Assembly: GCA_021732415.1 (NCBI GenBank)
Contig: JAKFVC010000030.1
Location: 1-64,000, forward strand
Origin: Planctomycetaceae bacterium
GTDB lineage: Bacteria; Planctomycetota; Planctomycetia; Planctomycetales; Planctomycetaceae
DNA: 64,000 nucleotides
Reading direction: 5' to 3'
The notes beneath the pieces were generated by a model that was given only the letters and a program-made list of their open reading frames with translations, did not search any database and was not told the DNA's origin. The translations under genes and the position numbers were made by a program. Shown piece by piece: positions 2,932-56,685 of this stretch (its first letter is position 1; every line of letters starts with the position of its first letter).

Positions 2932-3187
2932 CGTGGGACGGGTCTCCAGGCCCGTCCGTCCCCCGTGCTCACCGGCTCGCATCAATCAATACGGCCTGCA
3001 ATGTCAGTCAAACCTGGAGATTCGGGTGCCACTGGCTATGCCAGTGCATTTGCCGGACAGGGAATCGATTGACTACGAGCACTGGCGGAGCCAGTGGCAC
3101 CCAGATTTGGGTTTATTGAAGCACTCGTGTCAGATTTCCCCGAGTCGACCATGCCGGGGGCGGACGGGCCTGGAGACCCGTCCCACG
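2932..3187. repeat. REP1 pair enclosing a PAL1 pair
   Basis: Outer REP1 copies: 2932-2957 (CGTGGGACGGG...CCCGTCC) and its reverse complement 3162-3187. Inside is an unrelated inverted pair, PAL1: 3024-3047 (GGGTGCCACTGGC...) and 3079-3102. Each copy forms its own hairpin, and the whole 256-bp block could fold into a long nested structure. It lies between convergent genes. Confidence 0.9.
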
Positions 3188-20653: not shown

Positions 20654-20938
20654 GACGGGTCTCCTGGCCCGTCCAAGCCAGTAACAATGCGCGGCAAGCT
20701 GTAGGAAGACCTGGTTCATTTTGTATTTCTTTGTGTCCTTCGTGACCTTTTGTTCAAAAGGATTGGAACAGAAGGTCACAAAGGACACGAAGAATTGCGA
20801 AGCCCTGGTCTGGTGGTCCAGGGAACTTGCTGGACCTCAAATATCGATCGAAGTCGTGCGCCGAACGAAGCTCCTGATGGGTTGATTCTTTTTTGACCCA
20901 AATGCTACGGGCTCGGCCGGGCCGGGAGACCCGTCCTA
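20651..20938. repeat. REP1 pair enclosing a TRI1 pair
   Basis: Outer copies: 20651-20674 (TAGGACGGGTCTCC..., preceded by CG, so with the GTAG form) and 20915-20938 (...GGAGACCCGTCCTA). Inside is the TRI1 pair 20727-20755 / 20766-20794 (arm GAACAGAAGGTCACAAAGG...). The outer left edge forms the stop codon of the channel gene. The cluster fills most of the gap before ftsY. Confidence 0.9.
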
Positions 20939-26966: not shown

Positions 26967-27152
26967 CGTGGGACGGGTCTCCAGGCCCGTCCGTCCAAAA
27001 TCGAAGACACATCTATCGGCGAGATTCGACAACCGGCGTAGCGGAATCTCGTAAGAGTTCCGCCTGGGAGTCGGGAGACCACCGCGGAACTCTCACGAGA
27101 TTCCGCTACGGAGATCCTGCTGGACGGACAGGCCGGGAGACCCCTCCCACGG
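26967..27152. repeat. REP1 pair enclosing a REP3 pair
   Basis: Outer REP1: 26967-26992 and a decayed copy 27122-27152. Inside is REP3: 27038-27064 (GTAGCGGAATCTCG...) and 27084-27109. The cluster lies between divergent genes, upstream of both, so it is not simply a terminator element. Confidence 0.9.
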
Positions 27153-36584: not shown

Positions 36585-37211
36585 ATGCGGGACCGAGAAA
36601 CGCAAGAAAGATACGGGCCGGACGTCAGTCGCCGGTCGTTTTTGAAGGGCTCGGGTGTCGCGGTTGCGGCCACAGCCATCGCTACGGCGGCCGAAGAGGC
36701 CCTGGCGCAGGACAAGAAGGCCGCAAGTGCCGCTTCTTCGTCCAAGGCTCAGGATGTCGAACTCACCATTAATGGGGAAGTTCACAAGCTTAAGCTTGAG
36801 CCGCGTGTCACACTGCTCGATGCCATTCGCAACGACTGCCATCTGACCGGTTGCAAAGAAGTTTGCACGACCAAGAACTGTGGCGCCTGCACGGTGATGA
36901 TCGACGGGAAAGCCGTCTACGCGTGTACTCGGCTGGCGATTGCCGAACAGGGCAAGAAGATTACCACCGTTGAAGCGTTGTCCGCGGGTGGCAAGGTCGA
37001 TCCGGTCATCCCCTGCTTCATCAAGCACGATGCGACGCAGTGCGGTTATTGCACACCGGGTTTCGTGGTCGCGACGCGGGCGTTCCTCAACGAACATCCG
37101 AAGGCGACCCTGGAAGAAATCCAAAAGGGACTCGGCGGCAACCTGTGTCGTTGCGGGACCTATGATGGTGTTGCCAAGTGTGCCCTCGAGCTTGCCAAGG
37201 GAGGTGCCTAA
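36585..37211 (+). CDS. Aldehyde/xanthine dehydrogenase-type 2Fe-2S subunit with Tat signal
   Basis: The 208-residue small subunit of a molybdo-flavoenzyme. It has a Tat signal (SRRSFLKGSGVAVAATAIATAA, about 15-36), then the ferredoxin-like [2Fe-2S] domain with Cys94, Cys99, Cys102 and Cys114 (KNCGACTV motif) and the helical second domain with Cys153, Cys156, Cys188 and Cys190 (QCGYCTPG; NLCRCGTYDG). Cys90 is an extra cysteine. As in E. coli PaoA, the Tat signal on this subunit would bring the whole folded complex to the periplasm. It leads the operon; ATG 36585 follows GGGAG by about 10 nt. Confidence 0.93.
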   Translation: MRDRETQERYGPDVSRRSFLKGSGVAVAATAIATAAEEALAQDKKAASAASSSKAQDVELTINGEVHKLKLEPRVTLLDAIRNDCHLTGCKEVCTTKNCGACTVMIDGKAVYACTRLAIAEQGKKITTVEALSAGGKVDPVIPCFIKHDATQCGYCTPGFVVATRAFLNEHPKATLEEIQKGLGGNLCRCGTYDGVAKCALELAKGGA

Positions 37212-37213
37212 CT

Positions 37214-39400
37214 ATGGCTGAAGAACGCAAATTTGGATGGGGGCCGCGAAAGGACAACGTCCTGATCGGCAAGAGTATACAACGTATCGACGGCTTCGAA
37301 AAAGTTTCTGGCAAGGCGCAGTACACGGCAGATATCAATACGCCGGGGACACTGTATGCCAAGCTGCTGACCTGCACTCATGCGCATGCCAAGCTGAAAA
37401 AACTGGATGTCGAACCGGCGAAGAAGATTCCTGGCGTCCGCGCCGTTTACATCTTCCCCGCGGGCGACCTGAAGGCTGAAGGGGCGGGCGAGATTTTTTG
37501 GGACGGCACGCTGATCGCTGCGGTCGCTGCCGATCGACCCGAGATCGCTGAAGATGGTGTCAAAGCCATCATCGCCGAGTACGAAGTGCTCGATCACATC
37601 GTGGATGAAGAGGACCTCAAGGCTGCGGAAGCCAAGGGGGCGACCAAGGCCGTTGGTAAGAATGCCAAGGGCAAGGTTGAGGATGCGCTGAAGACGGCCA
37701 AGCACGTCCATAAGGGCTACTACGGCGTCCACACCATCAGCCATATGTGCCTGGAACCGCATGGCACGCATTGCGAATGGAAGGCGGACGAGGTTCTCGA
37801 TATCCACGCTTCGACGCAGAACGTCTCGGGACTCGCGGGTCAGTTTGCGGGTCCGCTGGGAATCGATGCTGCGAAAGTCCTGGTGACGGCCAACTTCGAA
37901 GGGGGCGGCTTCGGTTCGAAGTTTGCTGCTGACGAATGGGGTATCGCTGCCGCCAAGATGGCCAAGGAGACGGGTAAGCCGGTCAAGCTGATGCTCGATC
38001 GCGCGACCGAACTCAAGGCCGCGGGAACGCGACCTTCAGGATATATCGACGTGACTCTCGGTGCGGATGAAACGGGCAAGATCGTGGCCTGGGACAGCCA
38101 TCACTGGGGTAGCGGCGGGATCTCGGGCGGTTCGATTCCGGTCGGCGGCATTCCGTATGTCTTCGATTTCGAAAATCGCAGCCGGACGGCCACGCAGTTG
38201 AACTGCAATGTCGGACCGACGCGAGCCTGGCGTGCTCCGCCGCATCCGCAACTGTGTATTCTGACGCACTGTGCCATCGACGATCTGGCCATGAAGATGG
38301 GGAAAGACTCGTACGATGTCTTCCTCACCAATCTGGAGCAGACGGCCGGTACGGCGGCGCATCTGCCCGAGACCTACAAGGCTGAGATGGAAATCGCTGC
38401 CAAGTTGATCGGGTGGAAAGAGAAGTGGCATCCGCACGGGAAAGACGCCGGCAAGGGTGCGGTCAAACGCGGCCTGGGCATGGCGTTGCACACGTGGGGT
38501 GGCGGTGCGGGCGGTTGTGCCTGCAACGTCAAGATCCATGCGGACGGTTCTGTGGAATCGTTCGTCGGCAGCCAGGATATTGGTACCGGGACCCGCACCG
38601 TCATCGCCATTACGCTGGCCGAAACGTTCGGTCTGCCGCTGACTGCGATTAAGGTTAACCTGGGATCGAATCAGTATCCGGCCTCGGCGGCGTCCGGTGG
38701 AAGCATCACCGTCGGTGGCGTGTCGGGGGCTCATCGTCGAGCAGCTCAGACGGCCTTGTGGAAGATCTTTGACCTTGTGGCTGCGAAGTACAAGGTAGAC
38801 GCCGGAACGCTGGCTGCCAAAGAGGGCAGTATCGTCTCGGGAGATAAGAAGGTCTGCACCTGGAAGCAAGCCTCGATGTTGCTGGGTCCGATGGGCCTGG
38901 AAACGAAGGGCGAAGGGCCGGCCGAAGATGGTCTGACCAGTTCGCGCGTCGGTGGAGTGCAGATGGCGGATGTCTCGGTCGATTCCGAAACGGGGATCGT
39001 CCGCATCAACAAGTATGTCGCCGTGCAGGATTGCGGATTGATCATCGATGAACTCACCGCCAAGAGTCAGATCTATGGCGCAGTGATCATGGGCATCGCT
39101 TATGCCCTGAGCGAAGAACGCGTGATGGACAAGAAGACCGGCCGGTATATCAATGCCGACCTGCAGAATTACAAGCTGCCGCGGATCGGGGATATCGGCG
39201 AAATCGTCGTCAATATCTACCAGCCCGACAGCGAGTACAGCCGGGGCGTCATCGGTTTGGGTGAGCCGCCGGTTATTTCCCCGGGTGCGGCGATTTCCAA
39301 TGCGGTCGCGAATGCGTTGGGGGTCCGCGTGCCGGTGGTGCCGCTGACTCCGCAACGTGTGTTGGCTGCTCTGAGCAAAAGTAAAGGAGGCGCGGCATGA
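37214..39400 (+). CDS. Molybdopterin-binding large subunit, aldehyde/xanthine dehydrogenase family
   Basis: The 728-residue catalytic subunit follows the small subunit after two bases; a GGGAGG site lies in the end of the previous gene. Length is close to E. coli PaoC. Visible are VSGKAQYTADINTPGTLYAKLLTC, the GGGFGSKF loop of the cofactor site, GSQDIGTGTRTVIA, SGGSITVGGVSGAHRRAA and the C-terminal catalytic Glu in GLGEPPV (Glu684). It holds the molybdenum cofactor and oxidises an aldehyde or N-heterocycle using water; the exact substrate cannot be read. It has no signal peptide of its own, consistent with export on the small subunit. Confidence 0.93.
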   Translation: MAEERKFGWGPRKDNVLIGKSIQRIDGFEKVSGKAQYTADINTPGTLYAKLLTCTHAHAKLKKLDVEPAKKIPGVRAVYIFPAGDLKAEGAGEIFWDGTLIAAVAADRPEIAEDGVKAIIAEYEVLDHIVDEEDLKAAEAKGATKAVGKNAKGKVEDALKTAKHVHKGYYGVHTISHMCLEPHGTHCEWKADEVLDIHASTQNVSGLAGQFAGPLGIDAAKVLVTANFEGGGFGSKFAADEWGIAAAKMAKETGKPVKLMLDRATELKAAGTRPSGYIDVTLGADETGKIVAWDSHHWGSGGISGGSIPVGGIPYVFDFENRSRTATQLNCNVGPTRAWRAPPHPQLCILTHCAIDDLAMKMGKDSYDVFLTNLEQTAGTAAHLPETYKAEMEIAAKLIGWKEKWHPHGKDAGKGAVKRGLGMALHTWGGGAGGCACNVKIHADGSVESFVGSQDIGTGTRTVIAITLAETFGLPLTAIKVNLGSNQYPASAASGGSITVGGVSGAHRRAAQTALWKIFDLVAAKYKVDAGTLAAKEGSIVSGDKKVCTWKQASMLLGPMGLETKGEGPAEDGLTSSRVGGVQMADVSVDSETGIVRINKYVAVQDCGLIIDELTAKSQIYGAVIMGIAYALSEERVMDKKTGRYINADLQNYKLPRIGDIGEIVVNIYQPDSEYSRGVIGLGEPPVISPGAAISNAVANALGVRVPVVPLTPQRVLAALSKSKGGAA

Positions 39401-40395
39401 AGAATTTTGAATTTGCCAGCCCACAAACCGAAGCCGAAGCGGTGGGCCTGTTGCAGGATCATGGAGGCCGCACGGCGGTCCTCGCGGGAGGGACTGATCT
39501 GGTCGGCTTATTGCAAGCCGATCTGGTCGCCCCGGAACGCGTGGTCGATGTGCGTCAGATTCAGTCGATGTCGGGTGTCCGACGTGAAGCCGACGGCCTG
39601 TGGGTCGGGGCCCTCACGACGTTGGACGATGTCCTCGCCAGCCCGCTGTTGAAGCCCTATCTGTCGCTGGTTCAGGTGGCGGATGCCCATCATGCCATTC
39701 AGATCCAGTCCAGCGGGACATTGGGAGGCGACTTGTGTCACCTGCCGAACTGCTGGTACTACCGGAATGGATACGGTCTGCTGGCGATGAAGGATGGCGA
39801 ATCGCTGGTAGAAACGGGCGACAACCGTTACCACGCGATCCTCGGGAATTCGGGACCGGCGAAGTTTGTGAACGCGTCGCGGTTTGCTCCGGCATTGATT
39901 GCCTGGGGAGCCAAGGTGCGGATCATCGGCCCGGCCCCGGAGCAAGTGGAAGTGGTTCCGCTGGAATACTTCTACATCTCGCCGAAATCGGCCAATCAGG
40001 GGAACACGATCCTGAAGCCGGGTCAGTTGATTTCGCACATCTGGCTGCCGGCGATCGAACCGACCCATGTCAGCGCGACGTACGAAGTGCTGCAGATGGA
40101 AGGTCTCGATTGGCCGTTGGCGACGGCGTCGGTGACGTTGGATGTCGAAGGGGGCATCGTGCGGGCGGCTCGCGTGGTGTTGGGGCATGTGGCACCGACA
40201 CCGTGGGTGTCGCAGGAGGCCGCGTCACTGCTGCGGAATCAGATGGTGACCGAAGACTTGGCCAATGCGGTCGGTGCGGCGGCGGTTTCCAAAGCCACAC
40301 CATTGTCCAACAACGAGTACAAGGTGCAGATTGCCAAGACAGCCGTCAAGCGGGCGGTGTTGAAGGCGGTCGGTCAACTGGAAGGAGGGCTGTAA
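39397..40395 (+). CDS. FAD-binding subunit, xanthine dehydrogenase-type
   Basis: The 332-residue FAD subunit overlaps the previous gene by four bases (ATGA) and has AAGGAGG upstream. It shows the FAD site AGGTDLVGLL (30-39), TTLDDVLASPLL and SSGTLGGDLC (105-114). PaoB and 4-hydroxybenzoyl-CoA reductase beta carry an extra [4Fe-4S] cluster in the loop after this point; here the loop has CHLPNCWYYRNGYG with only Cys114 and Cys119, and lacks the two later Cys of PaoB. The cluster may be missing or completed by another protein. It transfers electrons from the iron-sulfur subunit to an acceptor. Confidence 0.92.
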   Translation: MKNFEFASPQTEAEAVGLLQDHGGRTAVLAGGTDLVGLLQADLVAPERVVDVRQIQSMSGVRREADGLWVGALTTLDDVLASPLLKPYLSLVQVADAHHAIQIQSSGTLGGDLCHLPNCWYYRNGYGLLAMKDGESLVETGDNRYHAILGNSGPAKFVNASRFAPALIAWGAKVRIIGPAPEQVEVVPLEYFYISPKSANQGNTILKPGQLISHIWLPAIEPTHVSATYEVLQMEGLDWPLATASVTLDVEGGIVRAARVVLGHVAPTPWVSQEAASLLRNQMVTEDLANAVGAAAVSKATPLSNNEYKVQIAKTAVKRAVLKAVGQLEGGL

Positions 40396-40398
40396 GCC

Positions 40399-40620
40399 AT
40401 GTCTGACGAACTGTCGCAACTCCCCCAGGCGGAGCGTTGTACGAACTTGCTGTGCAAGGGCCTTTATTTGAATGTCGGCCAGCCCCCCGGAAAACGGGTG
40501 ACCGGCGATGGCAACTTCTGGTGCGGCAAGACGCAAACGATCATCGGTCCTGACCGCAACTTCGTCGGTGACGGCGAATGCCGCCACACCGGACGCAGTT
40601 GCTACGAGGGGAATACGTAA
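40399..40620 (+). CDS. Cysteine-rich small protein of the molybdo-oxidoreductase operon
   Basis: A 73-residue protein that starts three bases after the FAD subunit with AAGGAGGG before it, so it is translated as part of the operon. It has five Cys (14, 19, 42, 61, 68) in RCTNLLC, FWCGKT, GECRHT and SCYEG. No signal peptide and no named family seen. The Cys pattern could hold an iron-sulfur cluster or zinc. Its place suggests a partner, assembly factor or electron carrier of the enzyme. A strong terminator follows 32 bp later. Confidence 0.8.
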   Translation: MSDELSQLPQAERCTNLLCKGLYLNVGQPPGKRVTGDGNFWCGKTQTIIGPDRNFVGDGECRHTGRSCYEGNT

Positions 40621-40652: not shown

Positions 40653-40688
40653 GAGCCCGGTCTTCGAGATGAAGTCCGGGCTCTTTTT
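40653..40688 (+). terminator. Terminator of the molybdo-oxidoreductase operon
   Basis: GAGCCCGG and CCGGGCTC arms with an inner CTTC/GAAG pairing, then TTTTT. It follows the fourth gene at 32 bp and closes the operon. Confidence 0.9.
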
Positions 40689-40755
40689 ATGACCGTTGGA
40701 AATAAGTTGAAATTGACGTACGTCGTTGTTGACGTATTATTGTGGCTGAGCGTAC

Positions 40756-40934
40756 CGTGGGACGGGTCTCCAGGCCCGTCCGTCCAATTTTCGTAATGTC
40801 GCAAGCTCTGATAGACGGCTGGATCTTCAAAACTTCGTGTCCTTTGTGACCTTCTGTTCCAATTCTTTTTAAACAGAAGATCACAAAGGTCACGAAGAAG
40901 GAGGGGACGGACGGGCCTGGAGACCCGTCCCACG
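40756..40934. repeat. REP1 pair enclosing a TRI1 pair
   Basis: Outer copies 40756-40781 and 40909-40934; inner TRI1 40833-40858 / 40871-40896. The layout is the same as at 20651-20938 and 51983-52190, but with different spacer lengths. It lies just before the first STAND ATPase gene. Confidence 0.92.
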
Positions 40935-40973
40935 ATACTTTCGACCTGTTCCACGACAGCACTGGACGGACCT

Positions 40974-42149
40974 ATGAAAGCGAATCCTGGCGGCAGTATT
41001 GACCCGCAGAATGTAGTGGGTCGCGATCGCCTCATTGAACAGATCTGGAACACGCTGGAAGGGCAGAGCGTCATCCTGACTGCTGAGCGACGCATTGGGA
41101 AAACCTCCGTGATCAAGAAGATGCAGGCGGAGCCGCGGGCGGGGTCTCATCCTGTGTTTCAAGATCTGGAAAGTGTCCACTCGCCGGAAGAGTTTGCCCT
41201 GTTGGTTTACGAAAAAGTGCAGAACTTCTTGGGGCTGTGGAAACGGGTGGCGAACAGTGCCCAACGCTTCTTGCAGGAACACCGCATCGAAGCGGCCGGC
41301 GTTGCGCTGGAGGCACACGGCACTCGTCACTGGAAAGGTTTTTTAGAACGATCGATCGAGGACCTGACGAATGCCCGTGGCCAGCAGCAACTCGTGTTCT
41401 TCTGGGACGAGTTCCCCTACATGCTCGACAACATCTGGCAGCGGGAAGGGGCTAAGTCGGTTGGGGAATTGCTCGATACGTTGCGGGCCCTGCGGCAAAG
41501 TCATCCGTCGTTTCGCATGGTGCTGACTGGATCCATCGGCCTGCATCACATCCTGGCGCGGCTCAAGGCCGATGGGTATCGGAATGCACCGTTCAATGAC
41601 ATGCTCAAAATTGAGGTCCCGCCGTTGGACCTGGTGGATGCTCAGCAGTTGGCACAGCGATTGATTGAGGGGGAACAGTTGGTCTGTCCCGACATGGGTC
41701 GTGCGACGGCTGCCATTGCGTTTCTGGTCGATGGGTTTCCCTACTACATTCACCACATCGTCCGCGAACTCAAGAACCGGCGCAGCGTCGTGGACCCGGA
41801 TAAAGTGCTCGCGATCATTGAGCATTTCACTCAGGATGCGAGCGATCCGTGGAATCTGACGCATTATCGCGACCGTATCGGCGACTACTACCCGAACCCC
41901 GAGGATGCGACCGCGGTGCGTTTGATCTTGGACACGGTGGCGTCGCACGCAGGGCCGCTGGAACTCTCGCAGTTGATGGCCGAGTTACAGTCGCAGACCT
42001 CGGTGCTCGGTTCGCGGGACCGTGTGCTGCAGTTGTTGCGGATGCTGGAACTGGATCATTACATCACACATCACGGCGATCGGTCGTATGACTTTCGGTT
42101 TAGTTTGATTGAACGGTGGTGGAGGCATGATCGGGACTTGAGCCCGTAA
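40974..42149 (+). CDS. STAND/archaeal-type AAA ATPase with winged-helix C-terminus
   Basis: The 391-residue product is a P-loop ATPase of the ATPase_2/STAND type. Walker A is AERRIGKTS (37-45), Walker B LVFFWDEF (140-147) with Asp145/Glu146. A sensor-1-like VLTGSIGLHHIL comes after it, and then a lid and winged-helix-like region (LDTVASHAGPLELSQLMAELQSQTSVLGSRDRVLQLLRMLELDHYITHHG). There is no TPR or other sensor repeat and no clear effector domain. STAND ATPases act as switches in signalling and immunity. It is the first gene after the nested repeat cluster; its neighbour is a second ATPase of the same general class. Confidence 0.85.
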   Translation: MKANPGGSIDPQNVVGRDRLIEQIWNTLEGQSVILTAERRIGKTSVIKKMQAEPRAGSHPVFQDLESVHSPEEFALLVYEKVQNFLGLWKRVANSAQRFLQEHRIEAAGVALEAHGTRHWKGFLERSIEDLTNARGQQQLVFFWDEFPYMLDNIWQREGAKSVGELLDTLRALRQSHPSFRMVLTGSIGLHHILARLKADGYRNAPFNDMLKIEVPPLDLVDAQQLAQRLIEGEQLVCPDMGRATAAIAFLVDGFPYYIHHIVRELKNRRSVVDPDKVLAIIEHFTQDASDPWNLTHYRDRIGDYYPNPEDATAVRLILDTVASHAGPLELSQLMAELQSQTSVLGSRDRVLQLLRMLELDHYITHHGDRSYDFRFSLIERWWRHDRDLSP

Positions 42150-42152
42150 TCC

Positions 42153-42374
42153 GTAGGATGGCCGCCCCGGCCGTCGTGTTCTTGGGTTGCGCGGCAAAGT
42201 TACATGTCTCCCACTGCGCGTTTCTTCGTGTCCTTCGTGACCTTCTGTTCCAATTCTTTTTTTACAGAAGGTCACGAAGGACACAAAGGAATGCGCTGCG
42301 TTGTCTATTCTTGTTGTTTGTGGCGGTAAAGAAGTAAGGGTTCGCCCGACTCTGGAGAGTCAGGCTACGAGATC
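42153..42374. repeat. REP2 copy, TRI1 pair and REP6-like copy
   Basis: A single REP2 left copy starts at 42153 (GTAGGATGGCCGCC...). The TRI1 pair follows at about 42223-42290 (TTCGTGTCCTTCGTGACC... and complement). A REP6-like copy GACTCTGGAGAGTCAGGCTAC lies near 42346-42367. Together they fill the gap between the two ATPase genes. Confidence 0.85.
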
Positions 42375-42383
42375 GCAATCCAC

Positions 42384-44945
42384 ATGGCTGAAACACGACA
42401 AATCTGGCGATTCACTCCTAGTCGAACGGAACCTGCCGTTCTGGAGACGATCTTCGTTCAGCGGCAGAATCTGTTGACGGACACGCTGGATCAAATCCGC
42501 GATAGCGCGACGACGGGCGATAAACATCACCTCTTGTTCGTCGGGCCGCGCGGCATCGGGAAGACGCATTTGCTCTCGCTCATTCGGCATCGTGTGAATG
42601 CTGATGCCACCCTGCGAGACCGCCTGCGCGTCGCCTGGTTGAATGAGGATGAAACGAGCACCTCGTTTCTGGAGTTGCTGGTTCGGATCTATCGTGCCCT
42701 GTCGGCGGGATATCCGACACAGTTTTCCGAACAGCATCTGCAAGAGACCTTCAATCGCCAGGCGGCGGACGGGCAGCGATTTCTCGAACAGCAGTTGTTG
42801 CATTGCCTGGGTGACAACACGCTGTTGCTGCTGGTTGAGAATCTCGATGAGTTGTTCAAGGGATTGGGAGATGCGGGGCAGAAGGCGTGGCGAGCTTTCC
42901 TGCAGGAGCATCCGATCGCCTGTCAGATCGCGACGTCGCAAAGTTTGTTCGCCGCGATCTCACGCCGCGCGACGCCGTTTTTTGGATTCTTTTCGGTTCA
43001 TCATCTGCAGCCGCTGACCGTCACCGAGGCCCAGGCGCTCTTATTGAAGATCGCACAGCAGGCAGGGAATGAGACTCTGGTTGCCTATTTGCGGACTCCG
43101 GAAGGCCGTTCGCGTGTGCGGGCCCTGCACCATCTGGCTGGCGGCAATCATCGAGTGTATGTAGTGCTTGCTGAGTTCATCGATCGTGATTCGCTGGATG
43201 AACTGGTGGGACCGTTTGAAGAGATGGTGGATGGTCTCACGCCGTATTATCAGGAACGATTACGTTGGCTGGCGCCCCAGCAGCGGCGCATTATTGAGTT
43301 GCTCTGCACGCAGAAAGAACCGCTGGCGGTGAAGGAGATTTCGCGGCAGTTGTTCTCGAAAGAGCAGACGATTGCCAGCCAGTTGAAGAAGCTGAAGCAG
43401 TTGGGGTATGTGAATTCATCCCCACGTGGTCGCGAGTCTCTCTACGAACTGACCGAGCCGTTGATGCGGTTGTCGTTTGAGGTGAAAGAGAACCAGCGTG
43501 AGCCGTTGCGGTTGATCGTTGACTTTCTACGCGTGTGGTATCGCCCCGAGCAACTGCAGACGAAGCTGGCTCAGGCGATTACTTCTTCAAGCCCCACGCG
43601 ACCGCATTTGCAGGCGGCGGTGTCGCGCGGCGGGCAGTCGGATCTGCGGTTGGAGATGCTCGAGCGGGATATCAGCACGGCTCAGGAAACACAGTCGTGG
43701 GAAGAGATCGTCACCGCAATGGAAGAGCGGGCCCATGTGCGGGGGACGGCGAATGACTGGTTCGAGTTGGGGAACGCTCAGGATGAGATCTTGCGGTTTG
43801 CCGACGCGGTGGCGAGCTATGACAAAGCCCTGGCGATTGATTCCTCGCTGGCGTACGTCTGGAATAATCGTGGGAATTCGCTGGCGGATATGAATCGGCA
43901 GGCAGAGGCGTTGGAGAGTTATGACAAGGCGATTGCCCACATTCAGGATGACGCGTTCTTGTGGAACAATCGGGGCAACCTGTTGTTCAACATGCGGCGT
44001 TATTCGGATGCTCTCGTCAGTTGTGATCGGGCGATTGGGCTTGATCCGAATCTGGAGGCGTCGTGGAACAATCGCGGTAATGCGCTGTATCAGATTGGTC
44101 GCTATACCGAATCGCTGGAAAGCTACGATCGGGCATTGGCGATCACTCCCGAGTTTGCCCTGGCCTGGAACAATCGCGGGAGTGCCCTGGAGAGCTTGGG
44201 GCGTTATGAGGACGCGCTCGAAAGCTACGAAATCTCGCTCACGATCAACCCGGCTGATTCGGATGCCTGGAACAATCGCGGGACGGCGTACTTCAAATTG
44301 AATCGAATTCCGGAAGCCTTGAAGGACTATCAGCAAGCCTTGGAGATCGACCCGCAAAACTGCGGAGCCTGGAACAATCAGGGGGACGCGTTGCTCAATA
44401 CGGGGTATTTCGTGGAGGCCTTGGCGAGTCTCGACAGGGCCATCGCGTTGGATCCGCTGGGTGCCTACCCGCACATGAATCGGGTGGAGGCGCTGTTGGG
44501 ACTGCGGAAATGGGATGCGGCGTTTTCCGCGTTGAAGACCGCCTTGGCTTCGACCTGGCCGAATGCGGAATCACACGCGGGTGATATTGTCGGCATGCTG
44601 AAGGGGGTGCTGGCGGGGAGTGAAGAGGCGGCGGCCCGCAAGGAACGCGTCGTGCGGCTGGTCAATCACTATCGCGATGCGGGGTTGATTTCGTATTTCG
44701 CCGAGGGGCTCGTGCGCAGCCTGAAGTTCTGGAAGAGTTCCATGTTCAACCACAAGGTGCTCGACGAGTGGCGGCTGTTGTGGCTGGAGTTGAAGGACCA
44801 ATATCCCGGATTGGAGCTGGCCATTCGGCTGTTTGATGCGGGGTCGCGGTACTTGATGACGAATGACGAACGCGTGTTGCTGGACTTGATCGCGACTGAA
44901 CGTGAGATCGCGCGGCAGGCGTTGGGGTTGGTTGCGGAACGCTGA
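42384..44945 (+). CDS. STAND ATPase with winged-helix and TPR array
   Basis: An 853-residue protein with three parts. The ATPase has Walker A VGPRGIGKTHLL (53-64) and Walker B LLLVENLDEL (149-158). A winged-helix region (about 305-375: IIELLCTQKEPLAVKEISRQLFSKEQTIASQLKKLKQLGYVNSSP) follows. A run of about eight TPRs (about 455-735) with the repeating WNNRGN motif comes next, then a helical C-terminal domain of about 110 residues that I do not recognise. TPRs usually bind a partner protein. The start MAETRQIW is preceded by a 234-bp repeat-filled gap after the first ATPase gene, so co-transcription is not certain. Confidence 0.88.
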   Translation: MAETRQIWRFTPSRTEPAVLETIFVQRQNLLTDTLDQIRDSATTGDKHHLLFVGPRGIGKTHLLSLIRHRVNADATLRDRLRVAWLNEDETSTSFLELLVRIYRALSAGYPTQFSEQHLQETFNRQAADGQRFLEQQLLHCLGDNTLLLLVENLDELFKGLGDAGQKAWRAFLQEHPIACQIATSQSLFAAISRRATPFFGFFSVHHLQPLTVTEAQALLLKIAQQAGNETLVAYLRTPEGRSRVRALHHLAGGNHRVYVVLAEFIDRDSLDELVGPFEEMVDGLTPYYQERLRWLAPQQRRIIELLCTQKEPLAVKEISRQLFSKEQTIASQLKKLKQLGYVNSSPRGRESLYELTEPLMRLSFEVKENQREPLRLIVDFLRVWYRPEQLQTKLAQAITSSSPTRPHLQAAVSRGGQSDLRLEMLERDISTAQETQSWEEIVTAMEERAHVRGTANDWFELGNAQDEILRFADAVASYDKALAIDSSLAYVWNNRGNSLADMNRQAEALESYDKAIAHIQDDAFLWNNRGNLLFNMRRYSDALVSCDRAIGLDPNLEASWNNRGNALYQIGRYTESLESYDRALAITPEFALAWNNRGSALESLGRYEDALESYEISLTINPADSDAWNNRGTAYFKLNRIPEALKDYQQALEIDPQNCGAWNNQGDALLNTGYFVEALASLDRAIALDPLGAYPHMNRVEALLGLRKWDAAFSALKTALASTWPNAESHAGDIVGMLKGVLAGSEEAAARKERVVRLVNHYRDAGLISYFAEGLVRSLKFWKSSMFNHKVLDEWRLLWLELKDQYPGLELAIRLFDAGSRYLMTNDERVLLDLIATEREIARQALGLVAER

Positions 44946-46028: not shown

Positions 46029-46293
46029 CGTGGGACGGGTCTCCAGGCCCGTCAGTCTCCAGGCCCGTCAGTCCCGCGTGATGGCGAGTCATGTTTTGGA
46101 GTCAGTCAGCGAGATTTCAGATTTGAAATTCCAAATTTGAGATTTGAAATTCGGCCAATTCGAATCGCAATCGCAATATCCAAGCCCGACCATTTGGTCG
46201 GGCTTTGTTGTTTTTAGGGATTAACTCAATCACGTTTGATAGTGACTCCCCGCGGGGACGAGGGGACGGACGGGCCTGGAGACCCGTCCCACG
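46029..46293. repeat. REP1 pair with an internal duplication
   Basis: Left copy begins at 46029 (CGTGGGACGGG...) and holds a partial tandem duplication (TCTCCAGGCCCGTCAG appears twice, up to 46075). Right copy 46268-46293. Between them are AT-rich 'AGATTTGAAATTC' direct and inverted repeats (46108-46155) and a terminator. The only REP1 pair with a slipped copy. Confidence 0.88.
46182..46215 (+). terminator. Rho-independent terminator inside the REP1 cluster
   Basis: AAGCCCGACC and GGTCGGGCTT arms with an ATTT... loop, followed by TGTTGTTTTT. It lies about 170 bp after the STAS gene, within the repeat pair. Confidence 0.85.
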
Positions 46294-51982: not shown

Positions 51983-52190
51983 CGTGGGACGGGTCTCCAG
52001 GCCCGTCCGTCCAGCCTCCATGAAGCAGAAGACGGCGGTACTCAGAACAGAAGATTGGCGCGAAGTGCATTGAATTACCTTGCTTCGTGTCCTTTGTGAC
52101 CTTCTGTTAAAAAGAATTGGAACAGAAGGTCACAAAGGGCACGAAGAAATACGAAGACGGGGACGGACGGGCCGGGAGACCCGTCCCACG
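51983..52190. repeat. REP1 pair enclosing a TRI1 pair
   Basis: Outer REP1: 51983-52008 and 52165-52190; inner TRI1: 52081-52108 / 52121-52146. The left REP1 begins five bases after the rodA stop codon. Confidence 0.92.
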
Positions 52191-53895: not shown

Positions 53896-54098
53896 CGTGG
53901 GACGGGTCTCCAGGCCCGTCCGTCCCGCCGCCGTAAACTCGAAAACGGTGGTACTCATAAGTAGTGCAACGAAGTCACAGGCACGAAGTGCATAGAATAG
54001 TCTTACTTCGGGACCTTACTCTTAGAACTGATGTGTGAGCAGAAGGACACAAGGAAATACAGAAGACCGGACGGACGGGCCTGGAGACCCGTCCCACG
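53896..54098. repeat. REP1 pair with a decayed TRI1 pair
   Basis: Outer REP1: 53896-53921 and 54073-54098. The inside has remnants of a TRI1-like arm (GAGCAGAAGGACACAAGG near 54038) and a weak complement near 54005. It separates the glycosyltransferase and the methyltransferase. Confidence 0.85.
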
Positions 54099-56426: not shown

Positions 56427-56685
56427 CGTGGGACGGGTCTCCAGGCCCGTCAGTCCAGCAACTCGACGTCAAAGGTATTTTACCCCTGCGACGTCGTGCG
56501 GTTCACAGCTGTCAACAGAGCATTTTGAGCCACAGAAGGACACAGAAGAAACACAGAAATCGGAACAGAATTTCTCTTCTGATTCTGTGTTTCTTCTGTG
56601 TCCTTCTGTGGCAAAACTCCCTCTTCTTAAATCTCAGTGGTCTCCCGGGTTGCGGGCTCGGACGGGCCTGGAGACCCGTCCTACG
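56427..56685. repeat. REP1 pair enclosing a TRI2 pair
   Basis: Outer REP1: 56427-56452 and 56660-56685 (the right copy ends CCCGTCCTACG, the GTAG form). Inside is TRI2: 56529-56560 / 56581-56612, the same family as 24255-24343. Confidence 0.9.

Follow-up and report, generated by a model that had tools for sequence, protein, structure and literature searches.

A 73-residue protein with four invariant cysteines is encoded by the last gene of a four-gene, PaoABC-like operon in the window, by which we mean the whole 64,000-nucleotide stretch of DNA analysed, and wherever this small gene was recovered it lay behind a gene for a PaoB-like FAD subunit. We propose, tentatively and at a probability of roughly 0.4, that the protein serves a Tat-exported, PaoABC-like molybdenum oxidoreductase of Planctomycetota as a dedicated fourth component, whose metal site, probably an Fe-S cluster, would act as a relay. 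The enzyme kind is a known one; the accessory family is uncharacterised, and a search of the open-licence literature turned up no account of a cysteine-based fourth component in enzymes of this family.

Results

The small gene closes a conserved operon

An earlier note on this DNA had described a small gene that starts 3 bp behind the FAD gene, has a ribosome site of its own and is closed by a terminator 32 bp downstream, and each of these features was found (Table 1). The FAD gene stops at TAA (40393–40395), and GCC then separates it from the ATG at 40399; AGGAGG lies 10 nt 5′ of this ATG, within the 3′ end of the FAD gene; and the hairpin, made up of a GC-rich 8-bp stem plus 4 bp followed by TTTTT, begins 32 bp past the small-gene stop. 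A simple terminator scan did not have this hairpin among its results. The gene order is FeS-Mo-FAD-small, with the small gene last before the hairpin.

Table 1 Features of the operon and of the surrounding window
Feature	Position	Strand	Evidence
FeS subunit, PaoA-like, 2x[2Fe-2S], Tat signal SRRSFLKGSG	36585..37211	+	Pfam Fer2_2, Fer2, TAT_signal
Molybdenum cofactor subunit, PaoC-like	37214..39400	+	Pfam MoCoBD_1, MoCoBD_2, Ald_Xan_dh_C
PaoB-like FAD subunit with only the first of four [4Fe-4S] ligand Cys	39397..40395	+	Pfam FAD_binding_5, CO_deh_flav_C; 5Y6Q_B alignment
Former cluster loop of the FAD subunit, CHLPNCWYYR ... GDNRYHAILGNSGPAKFV; Cys119 retained, three ligands gone	39736..39891	+	Alignment
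Ribosome binding site AGGAGG of the small gene	40383..40388	+	Sequence
Small four-invariant-Cys protein, operon gene 4	40399..40620	+	83/83 places; 87-sequence alignment; purifying selection (codon comparison)
Intrinsic-terminator-like hairpin with T run	40653..40689	+	RNA fold, z = -3.0
GACGGGTCTCCAGGCCCGTCC pairs	2937-3182, 20654-20935, 26972-27146, 40752-40938, 46034-46288, 51988-52185, 53901-54093, 56432-56680

The 73-aa product (translation MSDELSQLPQAERCTNLLCKGLYLNVGQPPGKRVTGDGNFWCGKTQTIIGPDRNFVGDGECRHTGRSCYEGNT) is encoded by a gene that is single-copy in its own genome. When the window gene was compared with that of a near relative (L035), differences fell at the three codon positions as 6/1/25, with dN 0.04 and dS 0.87 (dN/dS ~0.05), and judged from this codon comparison the small gene is under purifying selection. 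This codon-position pattern, together with conservation across 87 distinct homologues, rules out a chance open reading frame.

The small gene is restricted to one operon type and, so far, one phylum

A scan of genome contigs recovered 14 true relatives, all of them in Planctomycetota and all behind an equivalent operon. Single-sequence searching placed the small gene in 32 of 294 sampled Planctomycetota genomes, and a 39-row profile raised this to 82 of 294, at 83 places. At every one of the 83 it lay directly downstream of a PaoB-like FAD gene (82 places were matched to a FAD-subunit search of the same genomes, and the last, G229, was confirmed by reading the locus), with a median of ~38 bp between the edges of the FAD and small-gene matches (82 places). 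The four-gene arrangement put forward in the earlier note is thus upheld, and copies away from the operon, which we looked for, were not found. In the reverse direction, 79 of the 88 FAD genes with E ≤ 1e-30 in Planctomycetota genomes carry the small gene. It is missing behind the other nine, all of this broad group, two of which lie near a contig edge or are cut (the L051 contig stops at the FAD gene); an enzyme of this type therefore does not require the small protein.

Searches were run over genomes of Planctomycetota, over 99 genomes from a single further phylum and over plasmids. No convincing relative was found in the 99 genomes, to which a match at L048 had led; that match proved to be a chance one of 26 residues. 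One weak match outside Planctomycetota (L133) was also set aside: it is without Lys20 and the GPD motif, and no FAD match lies within its 3-kb stretch. Single-sequence tblastn found no small gene on plasmids, though 474 plasmid records have relatives of the FAD subunit, and a profile search of four FAD-bearing plasmid operons did not find it either. Within that scope the family appears, so far, to be specific to Planctomycetota.

The neighbourhood of the operon was also considered. No natural fusion of the small protein that would reveal a partner was present in the loci read, and genes 3′ of the operon vary by locus, with no conserved redox partner such as a cytochrome c and no CXXCH motif among the downstream genes listed. 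A further FAD_binding_5 gene, the only other one in the window's own genome, lies on a different contig.

Four cysteines are invariant in the small protein

The earlier note had called this a five-cysteine protein, and Cys14, Cys19, Cys42, Cys61 and Cys68 are indeed all present; Cys19, however, is Ser, Thr or another residue in most relatives, leaving four that are invariant. Cys14, Cys42, Cys61 and Cys68 were found, together with Arg66, in all 87 distinct sequences, Lys20 and Gly50 each in 86, and Thr45, Pro51 and Asp52 in more than 90%, giving the pattern C-x5-K ... WC-x2-T-x4-GPD ... C ... R-x-C-[YF]. The spacing between the invariant cysteines (x27, x18, x6) is without CxxC and matched no known Fe-S motif. 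At least one further Cys, at varying positions, occurs in 86 of the 87 proteins.

No Pfam or NCBIfam family matched the small protein. Sequence and profile comparison with the PDB gave no relative (a single chance match, E 0.64), and its AlphaFold2 model, which is compact and mostly loop (pLDDT 80.6, pTM 0.64), had no fold match there. The known small Fe-S families (ferredoxin, HiPIP, rubredoxin) likewise gave no Pfam, PDB-profile or fold match. An origin from the cluster loop of the FAD subunit was unsupported (hhalign probability 2%).

The four invariant cysteines argue for a metal site, and their pattern would fit zinc or disulfides as well. A small subunit without redox function, braced by zinc or by disulfides and serving to stabilise the complex or to cap its cluster loop, would suit both the four cysteines and the compact, loop-rich model as well as an Fe-S protein does. 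We nevertheless regard such a structural subunit as doubtful: typical zinc-finger spacing is absent, and the invariant Lys, Thr and Arg and the restriction to this operon, though compatible with it, would go unexplained.

The FAD subunit of the window has lost three of its four cluster ligands

The positions of ligand cysteines in FAD subunits were read from an alignment to 5Y6Q chain B. As the earlier note had recorded, the window subunit keeps CHLPNCWYYR and is without the three later ligand cysteines; what remains is the first ligand, Cys119 (in CWYYR; codon 39751–39753). We take the loop aligned here to be the holder of the [4Fe-4S] cluster in 1RM6 and 5G5G. The full set of four cluster cysteines is absent from the window subunit and present in most of its relatives.

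The small protein is paired with 85 distinct FAD subunits, of which 55 have four ligand cysteines, 9 have three and 21 only the first, while FAD genes without the small gene comprise 17 with four ligands, 2 with three and none with one. The cluster-less subunits, all 21 of which are accompanied by the small gene, form a single clade (100/100, one change) in a tree of 105 FAD subunits whose root is for drawing only and many of whose deep forks are weak. Their sister group has both the cluster and the small gene (95/91), and because of this the simplest order would be that a single loss of the cluster followed the arrival of the small gene. The pairing of the small gene with a defective FAD subunit therefore reflects the window's clade. 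Cys119 is retained in every cluster-less FAD subunit read, and their emptied loop is strongly conserved (GYGLLA ... GDNRYHAILGN.GPAKFV) and probably still does something.

The nine three-ligand subunits, which have Ser or Thr at the position of the fourth ligand (L014, L022, L025, L031, L032, L086, L089, L097, L099), form a clade of their own (100/98), which perhaps has a Ser-ligated or [3Fe-4S] cluster.

These data bear on the suggestion in the earlier note that the small protein supplies the missing ligands. Were it to give the FAD subunit its cluster ligands in trans, one could account for the small gene beside 21/21 cluster-less subunits, for the retention of Cys119 in all of them and for an additional, fifth Cys in region 15–19 or 50–60 in 23/23 small proteins of that clade. 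The same regions, however, hold an extra Cys in 33 of 55 small proteins whose FAD cluster is intact (and in 1 of 9 in the three-ligand group), counts that are not independent observations and from which we draw no mechanism. Moreover, the loss of the cluster was single, so the correlation amounts to one event, and the four invariant cysteines are the same whether the FAD subunit keeps or has lost its cluster. Co-occurrence with cluster-less subunits, which the earlier note had proposed to look for, extends to 21 of the 85 distinct partners. We reject the missing-ligand role, which we consider highly improbable, because most FAD partners (55/85) still have all their cluster ligands; since the small gene accompanies intact clusters, it must have a function of its own.

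Folding of a FAD-small read-through (TAA read as Q) gave pLDDT 89.5 and pTM 0.81, scores that say nothing firm on contact between the two; the FAD part of the model matched 5Y6Q_B best (Foldseek E 9.7e-26) and also 5G5G_B.

The operon encodes a PaoABC-like enzyme with a Tat signal

The XO-family FeS, FAD and Mo subunits are all encoded within one operon, and the four-gene order recurs in relatives. The FeS and Mo subunits scored 162 bits against the NCBIfam PaoA model (cut-off 322) and 302 bits against the PaoC model (cut-off 1180), well under both cut-offs, so the operon is PaoABC-like and not PaoABC proper. The Pfam TAT_signal match on the window FeS subunit is at 6.9e-07, and all four-gene operons with a readable start have a Tat motif on their FeS subunit. 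The small protein has no apparent signal peptide.

The main rival to a fourth component is that the small protein serves as a dedicated cytoplasmic factor for assembly or quality control, helping to insert a cofactor (Fe-S or MCD) or holding the enzyme until it is fit for Tat export, and stays outside the final enzyme. We think this somewhat unlikely. The operon-final position, shared with PaoD, the last gene of paoABCD (PMC2997495), speaks for it, as do the placing of the Tat signal on the FeS subunit, the lack of an apparent signal peptide on the small protein and the precedent of NapF, a cytosolic Cys-rich protein that matures a Tat-exported molybdoenzyme (PMC10609526). It is weakened by the XdhC-type chaperones encoded elsewhere in the window's own genome and in most small-gene genomes, by which Moco insertion is already served, and by Tat-signalled FeS-Mo-FAD operons that do without the small gene (L049, L052, L054–L056). 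With XdhC so distributed, the small protein is also unlikely to be a replacement for that chaperone, and XdhC/PaoD chaperone models in Pfam and NCBIfam did not match it.

At L053–L057 (genus g111), FeS-Mo-FAD operons have no small gene and instead, immediately 3′ of the FAD gene, a short conserved ORF of ~115 aa (MDVRFADPDQVSLLSHIFASILRRGLADAGVARKVAGLGRIG...) that is not Cys-rich.

Repeats and neighbouring genes in the window

Eight paired copies of GACGGGTCTCCAGGCCCGTCC (16 arms, chance expectation 0) were found, with arms facing and 150–280 bp apart, forming a dense, MITE-like family of small inverted repeats within the 64-kb window. A 65-bp palindromic element (CTTCGTGTCCTTTGTGACCTTCTGTTCC...) has copies at 40833–40897 and 42224–42288, which are 89% identical and 1.4 kb apart, and related matches at 20755 and 52109; three of these four matches fall inside GACGGGTCTCCAGGCCCGTCC elements. 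Adjacent genes at 40974–42149 and 42384–44945 both match AAA-type ATPases, and the second also encodes a long TPR array (Pfam); similar genes lie 3′ of the operon in a near relative (L034).

Discussion

A proposed fourth component on the FAD side

In the mechanism that we favour, the four invariant cysteines would ligate a single metal site, most probably an Fe-S cluster, and the small protein, placed on the FAD side of the complex, would link the flavin/[4Fe-4S] port to an external acceptor as an electron relay. That the protein carries the electrons on, as the earlier note had also suggested, is plausible. Its constant place behind the FAD gene is a hint, and no more than a hint, that small protein and FAD subunit work together. 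It may leave the cytoplasm by hitchhiking with the complex: the pairing is strict, the FeS subunit has a Tat signal, and in E. coli PaoB and PaoC, which have no signal of their own, are carried out by PaoA in piggyback fashion (PMC4273604), so that a co-exported fourth component is a reasonable reading. Where the FAD cluster has been lost, as in the window's clade, electrons might pass from FAD to the small-protein site directly.

A more far-reaching version, which we hold to be unlikely, is that this is a previously undescribed single-cluster family that serves exported XO-family enzymes throughout Planctomycetota as a true fourth subunit, and that in one clade it took over the electron port from the FAD [4Fe-4S] cluster, with FAD Cys119 and the shifting fifth Cys as part of the interface.

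The cluster-less clade, which keeps its small partner and one ligand Cys, offers a natural experiment on the role of the PaoB [4Fe-4S] cluster, and the four invariant cysteines, Lys20 and Arg66 are targets for mutation.

Comparison with known systems

In 4-hydroxybenzoyl-CoA reductase (HCR, 1RM6), an extra loop of the FAD subunit puts a [4Fe-4S] cluster at the electron port. Unlike the window operon, HCR-type operons of Planctomycetota have no Tat signal, and the small gene was absent from all ten that were read. The closest solved full-length relative with the loop is the Methylobacillus aldehyde oxidase 5Y6Q, the best structural match of the FAD subunit; in contrast to the window enzyme, its aligned sequence shows the complete set of four loop cysteines, and it is a three-subunit enzyme. 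NapF, a maturation protein of periplasmic nitrate reductase, resembles the small protein as a Cys-rich accessory encoded with a Tat-exported molybdoenzyme (PMC10609526); it has, however, four tetra-Cys motifs, whereas the small protein has four invariant cysteines in total and no Pfam match. From the E. coli system the window differs in that three of the four cluster ligands of its FAD subunit are lost, in that its fourth gene is unrelated to PaoD/XdhC, and in its gene order, FeS-Mo-FAD-small as against FeS-FAD-Mo in the non-planctomycete operons annotated. Like E. coli PaoABC, a periplasmic aldehyde oxidoreductase, it combines a Tat-signalled 2x[2Fe-2S] subunit, a FAD subunit that has the cluster-loop insertion and a fold like that of 5G5G_B, and a Mo subunit, and, as in paoABCD with its PaoD chaperone, a fourth gene stands at the end of the operon.
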